From Microbispora bryophytorum (GTDB lineage: Bacteria; Actinomycetota; Actinomycetes; Streptosporangiales; Streptosporangiaceae): a stretch of DNA of 64,000 nt. The position numbers and the translations under genes are program-made. Where the stretch lies: contig NZ_VIRL01000001.1 of NCBI RefSeq assembly GCF_006874465.1, forward strand, positions 124,001 to 188,000, in the 5' to 3' direction. Numbering within the stretch: position 1 is the stretch's first letter; each line of letters starts with the position of its first letter. A model generated the notes under the pieces. That model saw only the letters and a program-made list of their open reading frames with translations, was not told the DNA's origin and ran no database searches. Positions 58,151 through 61,675 of the stretch are shown piece after piece.

Positions 58151-58257
58151 CGTCACCAACGTATGCCGCGCGGGGACGTTTCATGTTCCTTCACGGCGAA
58201 GCGGCGCCCTGCGAGAGCCCTGCGAGAGCCGTCCGAGGAGGCGGGAACGTTTTACGG

Positions 58258-58285: not shown

Positions 58286-58328
58286 TCGATGTTGACTCAC
58301 ACAGTTATCGCCCAGTAGTCGTCATCAC

Positions 58329-59477
58329 GTGCGACTGCCCCGCGTGAAATTCGAGCATCGGCCTCACCGATACGAGGACGGCACCATTCGCATCGGCGGC
58401 GAGATTTACGGGATCGCCGCCGAAATCGCGGACCCATACGGCTGGGCGTGGACGGCCCTCACGCTGATGGACGGCACCCGTTCTCTCGACGAGATCATCG
58501 AGCGGCTGCGGCTGGCCCATCCGGAGCTGCCCGACCCGGAGTCGATCGTCGAGCAACTGGCCGCCACCCGATACGTCGAGGACGCCGCGGCGGTGCCGCC
58601 CGCCGGGCTGAGCGAGCGCGAGCGCGACCGCTACAGCAGGAACCACGCGTTCTTCCGCACGGTCGACATCGTGCCGCGCGGCCACGGCTGGGAGACCCAG
58701 CTCCGGTTGAAGTCCGCGCGGGTCGTGGTGCTCGGCCTGGGCGGCACGGGCTGCCACGCGGCCTGGGCGCTCGCGGCCGTCGGCGTCGGCACGATCCACT
58801 GCGTGGATCCCGACCTGGTCGAGCTGTCCAACCTCAACCGCCAGGTGCTCTACGGCGAGGGCGACGTCGGGCGGCCGAAGGCGGAGGCGGCCGTCGCCCG
58901 GCTGCGAACCGTCAACTCCGACATCTCCGTCACGGGCGAACGCCGCCACATCGGCAGCAGGCGCGAACTGGACGAGTTGATCGCGGGCTACGACGCGCTC
59001 GCCCTCTGCGCGGACCGGCCCACCGGGCACGACATCAGGGTGTGGGCCAACCGCGCCTGCGCCGCCGCGGGCATCCCCTGGGCGGGCGGCGGATACAACG
59101 GGCCGCTGGTCACCGTGGGGTGCTTCGCGCCGGGAGCGGGCGCCTGCTACGAGTGCCTGAGCAGCGGCGAGGAGGCGCGGCGCCACCCCGGCACGCCCGT
59201 GGACCTCGGCGGGCCCGGCGTGATCGCCACCTCGGCGGGCGTGTCCGGCCAGCTCGTCGCCCACGCGCTGCTCGGCCTGCTGACCGGGGTGCCGGTGCCG
59301 CCGGTCGGCACCATCCAGGGGGTCAACCTGATCGCCGCGGACCACCACGTGTGGGTCCGGCATCCGCCTCGGCCCGGCTGCCCGGTGTGCGGGACCCGGG
59401 CCGACGGGTCGGAACACAATTCAATGCACCGAATGACCGAAATCGACGCCGGCCGTGCGAACAGAACCAGGCCTTGA
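58329..59477 (+). CDS. ThiF/E1-like adenylyltransferase with N-terminal PqqD-like domain
   Basis: 382 residues, GTG start. Residues 1-90 form a small winged-helix-like domain (IRIGGEIYGIAAEIADPYGW, then TALTLMDGTRSLDEIIERLR), resembling the PqqD-type recognition element that binds RiPP leader peptides. The E1 domain has the ATP loop VVVLGLGGTGCHAAWALAAV (GLGGTGC 136-142), D160 in CVDPDLVELSNLNRQ with R171, K184, and a zinc site of C273/C276 (GACYECLSS) and C351/C354 (PGCPVCGT). E1-like enzymes activate a C-terminal carboxylate or an amide by adenylation. The next ORF encodes a 41-residue peptide, a plausible substrate (inference). Confidence 0.85.
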   Translation: MRLPRVKFEHRPHRYEDGTIRIGGEIYGIAAEIADPYGWAWTALTLMDGTRSLDEIIERLRLAHPELPDPESIVEQLAATRYVEDAAAVPPAGLSERERDRYSRNHAFFRTVDIVPRGHGWETQLRLKSARVVVLGLGGTGCHAAWALAAVGVGTIHCVDPDLVELSNLNRQVLYGEGDVGRPKAEAAVARLRTVNSDISVTGERRHIGSRRELDELIAGYDALALCADRPTGHDIRVWANRACAAAGIPWAGGGYNGPLVTVGCFAPGAGACYECLSSGEEARRHPGTPVDLGGPGVIATSAGVSGQLVAHALLGLLTGVPVPPVGTIQGVNLIAADHHVWVRHPPRPGCPVCGTRADGSEHNSMHRMTEIDAGRANRTRP

Positions 59478-59555
59478 CTGCGCCGGTCAACGGACGAATC
59501 ATGAACGGGTTCTCGCGAGAACATCCATGTCCCCTCCCCTTCCGAGAGGAACCGG

Positions 59556-59681
59556 ATGAACACGAACGAGCACGAGACCGAGGCCGTCGACGAGGCCGTC
59601 GTGCCGGCGAAGACGACGATCACCATCCGGCTGCTCGACAAGATCGAGACCACGACCAGCAGCAACAGCGTCGGCAACTGA
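59556..59681 (+). CDS. small peptide, candidate RiPP precursor
   Basis: 41 residues, ATG at 59556 with GAGAGGAACC just upstream. It begins MNTNEHETEAVDEAVVPAKT, continues TITIRLLDKIE and ends TTTSSNSVGN. The acidic, helical first part looks like a leader and the last ten residues (three Thr, three Ser, two Asn, one Gly) like a core rich in modifiable side chains. It sits 78 bp after the ThiF gene and 92 bp before a DUF6879-like gene. No homologue is recalled. The assignment rests on size, composition and context. Confidence 0.65.
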   Translation: MNTNEHETEAVDEAVVPAKTTITIRLLDKIETTTSSNSVGN

Positions 59682-59773
59682 CCAAGCGCCGGCCGCGGCG
59701 TGCGGGGGTGCCGCGGGGCCGCCCGCACGCCACGGCCGGCGAGAGCCCGCAGCCGGAACTCAGGGAGGGAAGG

Positions 59774-60445
59774 GTGGCGAACGCCGGCACCGTCTTCGAC
59801 GACGTACGGCAGGCCGAGGCGCGGGTCCTGTCCGCCGACGCCTACCAGGCCGAGTTCACCGAGGAGTTCAAGCGGGCCCCCGACGGGGTGTGGAAGCTCG
59901 AACGCGCTCAGGAGTTCTTCGAACCCGACGTGGCGAGCTGGCGGGCGATGATGGCCGGCGACTGGGACGGGTCGCTCGCCCTGCTGGAGGGGCTGCGGGA
60001 GTTCCTGGTCGACTACTACCGGACCCGGCCCACGGCCCGCCGGGTCCGCGTCGTGGAGACACCGCTCACCCCCTATCTCCAGTGGGAGCTGCACGTCCTG
60101 GCCGTTCGGGCGACGGCGGGCGAGCGGCCCCGGGTGCTGCACGCGGACGCCGTGCGGGAGCTGGAGCACCCCACACCGCTGCCCGAGATCGTCGTGCTCG
60201 GCCCCACTCTGCTCTACGAGGTGCGATACGACGAGATCGGCGCGCACATGGGCGCCCGGCGGATCACCGATCCCGCCCTCGTCGGGCCCTGCCTGGCCGC
60301 GATCAAGGAACTCTACGGCCGGGGAGAGGACGTCCGGGCGTACGTCGAGCGGGAGGTCGCCCCGCTGCCGCCACCCGTGATCACCGCCCGGAGGCGCGAC
60401 CTCCTGTCCGGCTACTCGCACCACACCGGGGTCTTCCGCCCCTGA
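59774..60445 (+). CDS. DUF6879-like protein in the ThiF-peptide-M50 unit
   Basis: 223 residues from a GTG at 59774 with GGGAGGGAAGG upstream. The pattern VFDDVRQAEARVLSADAYQ, SWRAMMAGDWDGSLALLEGL, RPTARRVRVVETPLTPYLQW, then IVVLGPTLLYEVRYDEIG and ARRITDPALVGPCLAAIKEL resembles DUF6879, a family common in actinomycetes and often close to helix-turn-helix regulators. The family name is from memory and its function is unknown. Here it lies between the candidate precursor and the protease, so it might be a partner protein in recognition or modification. Confidence 0.6.
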   Translation: MANAGTVFDDVRQAEARVLSADAYQAEFTEEFKRAPDGVWKLERAQEFFEPDVASWRAMMAGDWDGSLALLEGLREFLVDYYRTRPTARRVRVVETPLTPYLQWELHVLAVRATAGERPRVLHADAVRELEHPTPLPEIVVLGPTLLYEVRYDEIGAHMGARRITDPALVGPCLAAIKELYGRGEDVRAYVEREVAPLPPPVITARRRDLLSGYSHHTGVFRP

Positions 60446-60463
60446 CCCCGCGCCTGGAGGCCC

Positions 60464-61675
60464 ATGGTGGGAGATGCGAGCGTGGTGCGGCTGCGCGACC
60501 TCGCGTTCCGGCAGGACGGCTCCCAGTGGATCGTCGGCCGCCCGGACGGGGACGCGTTCGTCGCCGTGCCGTACGAGGGGGTGCGGGCCATCGGGCTGCT
60601 GTCGGCGGGAGCGACGGTCGAGGAGACGGAACGGCGGCTGCGTGCCGAGACCGGCGCCGATCTCGACGTCCGCGGCTTCGTCCGCGCCCTGGGCGAGCTG
60701 GGATTCCTTGAGGAGCCCGGCGGACCGGCCGCCCCCGCCGCGCCGCCGACCTTTCCGTGGCTGCGCCCCGGGCACGTGCGGTGGACGCTGCACCCGCTGG
60801 TCCACCTGCTGGTCGCCGGCCTGATCGCCGCCGGGATCGCGACGGCGGTCACCCGGCGGGAGACGCTGCCGGGCTGGCGCGACCTGCTGTGGAGCGAGCG
60901 CGGCACGCTCGTGCTCGCGTCGCAGATCGCGGTCGGCTGGATCCTGATCTTCCTGCACGAGATGGCCCACCTGTCGACCGCCAGGGCCGCCGGGGTGCCG
61001 GGCAGGATCCGGCTCGGCACCCGGCTGCAGTTCCTGGCCGTCCAGACCGAGGTGTCCGGCGTGTGGCTGGCCGGGCGGCGGGTCCGCCTGACGGTCTATC
61101 TCGCCGGGATGGCGACGGACGCGGCGGCGTGTTCGGCCGCGCTCCTCCTGACCGCCGTGCTGGGACACCGTCCCGTGCTCTCCCTGGTCGCGCTGACCTC
61201 GTTCGGCATGCTGGCCACGCAGTTCCTCGTGTTCATGCGCACCGACGTCTACTTCCTGCTGCAGGACCTGAGCGGATGCCGCAACATGTACGGCGACGCC
61301 TCCGCCTACGCCCGCCACCTGGCGCTGCGGGTGCTGCGCCGTCCCTCCCCCGACCCGCTCACCGGGCTGCCGCGCCGGGAGCGCCGCGCCCTCAGGACCT
61401 ACGCGGTGCTGCTGGTGGCGGGCACCGCGGCCTGCCTGGGGGTGGCGTTCGCGGTGACGGTGCCGGCGACGCTGACGCTGCTCGGCCGGGCCGTGGGCGT
61501 GCTGGCCGCCCCCGCGGATCCGCTCTCCGGGCTGGACGCCGCGGCGGTGCTGCTGTCCGCGGTCGCGTTCCAGGTGCTCTGGGCGCGGGCCTGGTGGCGC
61601 AGGCACGGCCCGCGCGTACGACGCGCCCTGCGCCGCCCGGGAAGGGAACGGGTCGCCGATCAGGACTGCGCGTAG
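60464..61675 (+). CDS. M50-type membrane metalloprotease with N-terminal PqqD-like domain
   Basis: 403 residues from the ATG at 60464 with GGAGG just upstream. Residues ~5-85 form a second PqqD-like winged helix (VRLRDLAFRQDGSQWIVGRP, then VEETERRLRAETGADLDVRG). Six or more membrane helices follow. The site-2-protease zinc motif is H165-E-M-A-H169 in LIFLHEMAHLSTARAAG, and the third ligand is probably D261 in FMRTDVYFLLQDLSG, matching the usual LDGYYLL pattern. It could remove the leader peptide and release or export the modified product. Its 3' end overlaps the convergent epimerase gene by 16 bp. Confidence 0.8.
   Translation: MVGDASVVRLRDLAFRQDGSQWIVGRPDGDAFVAVPYEGVRAIGLLSAGATVEETERRLRAETGADLDVRGFVRALGELGFLEEPGGPAAPAAPPTFPWLRPGHVRWTLHPLVHLLVAGLIAAGIATAVTRRETLPGWRDLLWSERGTLVLASQIAVGWILIFLHEMAHLSTARAAGVPGRIRLGTRLQFLAVQTEVSGVWLAGRRVRLTVYLAGMATDAAACSAALLLTAVLGHRPVLSLVALTSFGMLATQFLVFMRTDVYFLLQDLSGCRNMYGDASAYARHLALRVLRRPSPDPLTGLPRRERRALRTYAVLLVAGTAACLGVAFAVTVPATLTLLGRAVGVLAAPADPLSGLDAAAVLLSAVAFQVLWARAWWRRHGPRVRRALRRPGRERVADQDCA

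Follow-up and report, generated by a model that had tools for sequence, protein, structure and literature searches.

A ThiF, peptide and M50 protease operon of Microbispora bryophytorum as a candidate RiPP system of an apparently undescribed class

What might a bacterium make from a compact run of genes in which an E1-like adenylyltransferase, a 41-residue peptide and a membrane protease lie together on one strand? The question is posed by positions 58329-61675 of a 64,000-nucleotide stretch of the Microbispora bryophytorum genome (hereafter the window; assembly GCF_006874465.1, contig NZ_VIRL01000001.1, positions 124,001 to 188,000), for which an initial annotation had proposed a four-gene unit and a new system for ribosomally synthesized and post-translationally modified peptides (RiPPs). 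All four plus-strand genes were located there, and the proposal of a candidate RiPP system is supported because the peptide belongs to a conserved precursor family, both enzymes carry a domain resembling a RiPP recognition element (RRE), and the ThiF and M50 sequences have diverged together (Mantel r 0.93). We consider it likely that the genes form a minimal operon for RiPP biosynthesis, its class apparently undescribed, in which a leader would dock on both RREs, ThiF would adenylate the peptide and the M50 protein would cleave it; the adenylation and leader cleavage are predicted from family membership and intact catalytic residues. The genes are the following.

58329..59477, plus strand: RRE-ThiF adenylyltransferase, 382 amino acids (PF00899 match)
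59556..59681, plus strand: precursor peptide, 41 amino acids (motif family and codon test)
59774..60445, plus strand: DUF6879 protein, 223 amino acids, accessory (PF21806 match)
60464..61675, plus strand: RRE-M50 (site-2 protease-like) membrane protease, 403 amino acids (family alignment and model)

The precursor family and its two enzymes

Recurrence of the genes was assessed in loci collected through their M50 similarity (40 on GTDB contigs, more in further genomes), with six plasmid loci added through ThiF. Because the loci were chosen in this way and weaker M50 matches were only partly fetched, the fractions reported here describe the fetched set. The 126 loci counted (L021-L146) comprise 110 with ThiF and M50, 13 without a ThiF match and three plasmid loci without M50 (E 1e-10); the counts exclude L001-L020, which mostly repeat others with short flanks (L011, L012 and L017 are otherwise unrepresented). 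The 110 loci include duplicates and fall into 102 groups at 99.5% M50 identity (95 with the precursor motif described below) and 47 at 70% (42 with the motif). ThiF and M50 lie on the same strand in every one of the 110, with no more than 1,260 bases between their matches, and a precursor accompanies them in 102. The unit first described as four genes stands as a recurring set of three: DUF6879 is present in only 29 of the 110 loci, for which reason we rejected it as a defining component and treat it as accessory to a three-gene core.

The distance matrices of ThiF and M50 correlate strongly over 28 rows, with none of 5000 permutations reaching the observed Mantel value, and the correlation is 0.80 after five divergent rows are dropped. 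The three-gene set is common in actinomycetes. Counting M50 matches at E 1e-25 or better, which includes M50s without ThiF, hits were obtained in 70 of 250 genomes of the window's family, 42 of 295 genomes of the genus identified as Streptomyces, and 8 of 246 genomes sampled across the class.

The window peptide, MNTNEHETEAVDEAVVPAKTTITIRLLDKIETTTSSNSVGN, is encoded by an open reading frame (ORF) with a purine-rich stretch directly upstream, and it belongs to a family with the consensus IxIRxLDKxETT followed by a short tail rich in Gly, Ser and Asn. These elements are placed in the window by the family motif.

59619-59648, plus strand: precursor leader motif, I22-E31
59646-59654, plus strand: precursor ETT
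59649-59678, plus strand: precursor tail, T32-N41

Family members were sought as short ORFs carrying the pattern [IVLFM]x[IVLFAM][RK]x[LVIM][DE]xx[EQ][TCPS] near their end. Such an ORF was present in 100 of the 110 loci, and stop-to-stop reading added L023 and L052, whose precursors both have usable start codons; the resulting count of 102 is descriptive rather than blind because the pattern was made from the same data, the independent part being position and control. Each of the 121 motif ORFs in this count is located no more than 1.5 kb from the enzymes, none being farther off in the fetched stretches, and the reversed sequences of the 110 loci returned no motif ORF. The 41-residue ORF, initially proposed as the substrate, is thus conserved across genera as a family motif beside ThiF and M50, and among its close relatives the peptide is kept at full length in 11 orthologues (10 Microbispora, one Sphaerimonospora). 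Codon constraint in the window and these orthologues is strongest in the last 19 residues of the peptide, with a ratio of nonsynonymous to synonymous polymorphism of 0.53 overall, 0.61 for residues 2-22 and 0.34 for residues 23-41.

Among 87 distinct sequences of motif plus tail, position 0 is E in 85 and Gln in two (L092 and L046), and position +1 is T in 82, C in three (all from one locus, L035) and P in two, a conservation that is partly built in because the pattern fixed the spacing and allowed only E/Q and T/C/P/S at these sites. Position +2, which the pattern left unconstrained, is T in 80, I in five and A in two. Looser patterns applied to the actinobacterial loci gave no convincing precursor with another residue at 0 or +1, the Bacillota peptides described below being the exception. 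After E, 79 distinct tails of 8-15 residues can be told apart; a T or a C occupies +1 or +2 in each, and 63 of them end in G (18), S (16), N (16) or A (13), the remainder ending in other residues.

Precursor copy number varies, with four copies in L035 and three each in L044 and L037, and the shortest family precursors have 20 residues. NCBIfam models matched neither the window peptide nor four other precursors. A second precursor paired with its own DUF6879 gene stands beside a single ThiF and a single M50 in L065 (6907-7730; also in L062 and L012), the L065 peptide ending in LLDAAETAVCSNSTGN. The peptides of Paenibacillus L057 (3650-3739) and Cohnella L058 (3644-3733) read MTIEIREVEELAPT(M/A)(S/T)KTTDV(F/I)EGDGHF(V/I), with the same leader motif and a different tail.

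The window ThiF matches PF00899 (E 1.8e-48) and, among solved structures, MoeB, PaaA and MccB. Its catalytic residues for ATP and Mg, R171, K184 and D229, do not vary among 31 aligned sequences, nor do the Zn-type cysteines C273, C276, C351 and C354. The spacing of R171, K184 and D229 equals that of R167, K180 and D225, given as the ATP and Mg residues of EnfB in the review PMC12250964. A PqqD-like domain had been proposed at the N-terminus, and sequence comparison supports a putative RRE at approximately residues 4-85: the alignment with PaaA (5FF5) covers residues 4-219 (E 2.1e-27) and, since it starts at residue 4, spans the recognition domain. The window protein scores under the cutoff of 27 for PaaA-like_N (E 2.7e-4, 20.8 bits); across the 31 aligned members this Pfam family is matched by nine and PqqD by three. 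An adenylation domain whose ATP and Mg residues are intact, a predicted RRE fused to it and a conserved small precursor gene alongside are together the features of RRE-dependent ThiF-like RiPP systems.

The membrane protease had been assigned to the M50 type, and this holds for the family: PF02163 is matched weakly by the window sequence on its own (E 0.028), but 25 of the 30 aligned members reach E 0.01 or lower, and H165-E166-xx-H169 and D261 are invariant in all 30. Its landmarks in the window are these.

60503-60697, plus strand: M50 RRE, residues 14-78 (AlphaFold model)
60956-60970, plus strand: M50 HExxH, residues 165-169 (alignment)
61244-61246, plus strand: M50 Asp261, in RTDxYF (alignment)

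In the AlphaFold model (predicted local distance difference test, pLDDT, 91.2), residues 14-78 form three strands and three helices. The best solved match in Foldseek is the lasso peptide RRE TbiB1 bound to its leader (probability 1.00, template modelling score 0.71 by target length, E 0.11), and McbB, another lasso B1 protein and the PbtF RRE (probability 0.66) are also matched, so that the predicted fold of the N-terminus, initially called PqqD-like, resembles known RREs. Pfam PqqD is matched by seven of the 30 M50 sequences. A modelled PqqD-like winged-helix domain placed N-terminal to an M50 core points to a fusion of RRE and site-2 protease. A Protein Data Bank (PDB) sequence search with the M50 profile gave no useful match.

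Relation to described RiPP systems

Comparison with the literature drew on parts of the review PMC12250964 and of PMC12150305, PMC12710340, PMC7470986, PMC10885120, PMC10036551 and PMC7157772. The passages compared describe no such combination of enzymes and precursor. Among the matches listed by the literature search, which covers the field incompletely and consists of titles and the beginnings of abstracts, no description of an RRE-ThiF, an RRE-M50 and this precursor was present, in keeping with the initial impression that no described RiPP class has this gene set. According to the IndF paper, several unannotated clusters in a ThiF network resembled new RiPP pathways, and others may therefore have seen the family without naming it. 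We take the operons to represent a real, widespread, ThiF-dependent RiPP family that is apparently undescribed.

The nearest described counterparts are PaaA of pantocin A, MccB of microcin C (both compared below) and DapP of daptides. IndF, GrcB and EnfB of Bacillota are RRE-ThiF enzymes acting on a small precursor; GrcB and IndF are ThiF-like enzymes that macrocyclise, and the IndF system also has a dedicated protease. That protease, IndP, is described as an M16 enzyme, whereas an M50 enzyme occurs here; the cores given in the papers on these systems are unlike the tails reported here; and the GRC system is described with two radical SAM (S-adenosylmethionine) enzymes, compared with a radical SAM gene near a single locus, L034, in our set. 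On the protease side, daptides have an RRE fused N-terminally to a site-2 protease, DapP, and the window M50 has detectable similarity to the corresponding model daptide_HExxH (NF041824; E 2.3e-7), but its 30.3 bits fall far from the cutoff of 300, only three of the 79 tails end in Thr, and the window peptide ends in Asn. Membrane M50 proteins that process RiPP precursors are likewise described for epipeptides (EpeP/LiaK) and pearlins (TglG/TmoG), EpeP being thought to cleave and export an epipeptide; the window M50 reaches only 11.4 bits against the LiaK/YydH model NF058609, for which the cutoff is 225.

The interest of the family lies partly in its chemistry, as ThiF-like RiPP enzymes each use an activated carboxylate differently and only a handful of characterised examples are named in the portions of the literature compared. 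The strongly conserved leader motif makes genome mining easy, and the short precursors are accessible by solid-phase synthesis. The family could yield a new linkage and a new family of peptide signals or antibiotics, and could serve to ask whether maturation and release of a RiPP are both within the reach of one M50 protease; it also gives the DUF6879 family a testable context.

Possible chemistry of the product

In the mechanism we propose, the 41-residue peptide would be the precursor, its IxIRxLDKxE segment would dock on the RRE of ThiF and on that of M50, and ThiF would adenylate a peptide carboxylate. The group activated may be the C-terminal carboxylate of the Gly/Ser/Asn-rich tail, with the conserved Thr after the leader motif (replaced by Cys in three of 87 tails) as the capturing nucleophile; capture would give a macrolactone, or a thiolactone with Cys, spanning roughly 7-15 residues, and the membrane M50 would cut at or near ETT to free a short product, perhaps outwards. 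We prefer C-terminal activation with Thr/Cys capture because a nucleophile stands at +1 or +2 in every distinct tail and the tail ends are mostly small, and we hold it as a tentative preference, clearly short of an even chance.

Neighbouring genes were compared in 102 loci left after duplicates and distant loci had been removed by hand, each accessory family being represented in the Pfam scan by one or two members; the counts are approximate because the gene calls are crude (M50 was recovered in 76 and ThiF in 69 of the 102). Genes for DrrA-like ATP-binding cassette (ABC) transporters lie near 16 of these loci, for major facilitator superfamily (MFS) transporters near five and for EamA near five. 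Each thus occurs at a minority and none at most, on which ground a dedicated exporter was rejected; outward release by the M50 protein itself is perhaps to be considered because no transporter family recurs at most loci. A zinc carboxypeptidase-like gene of the M14 type is found in 17 of the 102 loci (L081 2234-3559 and 16 others) and adjoins and co-orients with the precursor in all 10 of the 17 for which gene maps were drawn. A broader picture, doubtful as a whole, would be of a widespread new RiPP class of hydrophilic peptides closed as Thr-lactones or thiolactones by an RRE-ThiF cyclase. RRE-M50 would release them through the membrane without a dedicated exporter, they would act as small cyclic signals of actinomycetes, and DUF6879, in the loci that have it, would be a receptor or a protection protein specific for the peptide.

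Several observations weigh against the proposed lactone or against the family as a whole. The strongest counter-argument is the Glu that precedes the Thr pair in 85 of 87 tails, which a pure lactone between Thr and the C-terminus would not need. The M14 gene beside the precursor would be odd if every C-terminus were blocked, past +2 six of the distinct tails contain none of Ser, Thr, Cys, Lys and Asn, and the excess of small residues at tail ends over whole tails is modest (80% compared with about 61%). Eight of the 110 loci lack a motif precursor, namely L032, in which the ThiF match is split in two, L056 and L135, contigs of equal length with a partial ThiF, the distant L072, L075 and L077, and the Bacillota loci L057 and L058, the last two of which keep the leader motif (IEIRxVE) without ETT. 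To these are added the derivation of the motif pattern from the data counted and the fact that product and enzymatic activity are predicted from genes.

The alternative that survives best, although we think it unlikely, is a pantocin-like reaction in which ThiF activates the side chain of the conserved Glu (E31), which then reacts with the neighbouring backbone amide or with Thr/Cys, the tail being a follower that is removed later, in Streptomyces perhaps by the M14 enzyme. This would account for the conserved Glu (within a pattern limited to E/Q) better than a macrolactone does, and an M14-like gene adjoining the precursor fits more easily with a free C-terminus. The system resembles that of PaaA and pantocin A from Pantoea in its RRE-ThiF architecture, in the extension of the PaaA match into the N-terminal domain and in the Arg-to-Glu spacing of 6, which equals R10 to E16 of PaaP as numbered in PMC12250964, though here the pattern fixed the spacing. 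It differs from it in lacking the Glu-Glu-Asn core (the tails read E-T-T or near variants), in having an M50 protease and in coming from a different phylum. The Glu-Glu pair given in that review as the source of pantocin is absent from these precursors, two tails (L092 and L046) have Gln, which cannot be adenylated, in place of Glu, and no oxygenase of the pantocin kind was recognised among the Pfam-scanned neighbours, with no search aimed at PaaB. The PaaP sequence itself was sought on a Pantoea plasmid, where no PaaP was recognised and the numbering of the review was used instead. The ThiF found on that Pantoea agglomerans plasmid (L141 3384-4493) belongs to a different cluster, with ectB, TauD-like dioxygenase, GNAT, CapA and ATP-grasp genes.

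Somewhat less probable still is a conjugation of the microcin C type, or another at the C-terminus, in which ThiF would couple the C-terminus to a nucleotide or free amine and leave a linear modified peptide. Among solved structures MccB ranks with the best matches (E 2e-26), and it shares with the window ThiF the adenylation domain sequence, the Zn-type cysteines and the Asp of the ADxP stretch; an MFS transporter gene lies near the precursor in five of 102 loci; and Asn is the last residue of the window peptide and of its Microbispora relatives, which is also how MccA ends. A terminal Asn is nevertheless found in only 16 of 79 distinct tails, others ending in G, S, A, D, R, C, M and further residues, and the microcin C reading suggested by the window's own terminus was accordingly rejected as a family rule. 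The precursors are also longer and leader-bearing, an RRE-M50 is present, and no tailoring enzyme of the kind that partners MccB was recognised, although no search was aimed at one.

That ThiF only scaffolds, like the docking ThiF of azole pathways, with M50 cleaving the precursor to release a signal, strikes us as improbable. Docking-only ThiF proteins do exist beside YcaO enzymes, yet here R171, K184 and D229 are all retained, and the docking model for thiazole/oxazole-modified microcins, TIGR03882, gives the window ThiF only 18.1 bits against a cutoff of 36.9. That a housekeeping ThiF and a site-2 protease of regulatory function adjoin a spurious ORF by chance, for which it can be said that ThiF and M50 are common families, is scarcely credible, as it is contradicted by the conserved precursor family, the RREs on both enzymes, the co-divergence and the recurrence.

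DUF6879, the upstream region and related loci

The window DUF6879 protein matches PF21806 (E 6.5e-33), and its model (pLDDT 90.8) has a fold that matches proteins like those of the phospholipase D (PLD) superfamily. HKD is the catalytic motif of that superfamily. As no HKD-like motif is present and the fold match is a resemblance only, a role as an active phospholipase D or nuclease is unsupported. No NCBIfam model was matched by the protein, and a PDB sequence search with its profile gave no useful match. Outside the operon, DUF6879 adjoins a helix-turn-helix protein of the HTH_31-DUF5753 type in all six short loci read (L147-L152), L147 having a DUF397 gene in addition. The DUF6879 members of these regulator pairs belong to the same Pfam family as the window protein, which differs from them in lying within a peptide operon, between precursor and M50. 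DUF6879 is most likely an accessory, peptide-specific partner for sensing or self-protection.

Upstream of ThiF lies one further feature, identified by conservation and with a predicted function.

58292..58321, plus strand: promoter-like element, TTGACT, 18 bases, TAGTCG

The element ends 7 bases before the GTG start of ThiF. The eight loci at least 80% identical to the window in M50 are all labelled Microbispora, and an alignment of the window with eight Microbispora loci shows no variation in TGTTGAC or in the TA of the second box and a conserved GTG position. Because this start is conserved directly downstream of the invariant TGTTGAC and the TA-containing box, a leaderless ThiF transcript is suggested. 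Farther upstream, a GGGAACGTTTTACGG box (58243-58257) is exact in five of nine aligned Microbispora sequences, and its TTTT and CGG are kept in all nine, making it a possible regulator site.

M50 relatives in L069, L071, L073, L074, L076, L079 and L080 have no ThiF match in their stretch at E 1e-10 and possibly belong to other peptide systems. L042 and L124 contain M50 and DUF6879 with only a short ThiF fragment several kb off and are possibly decayed copies. The genome of the window itself gives six DUF6879 matches, four of them above cutoff, and two of the six lie in two operons, the second being a complete ThiF, precursor, DUF6879 and M50 set in the same order (L061, 4956-8151). Its proteins are 57% (ThiF), 52% (M50) and 47% (DUF6879) identical to those of the window, and its precursor tail is ETTQTYSGNSNS.

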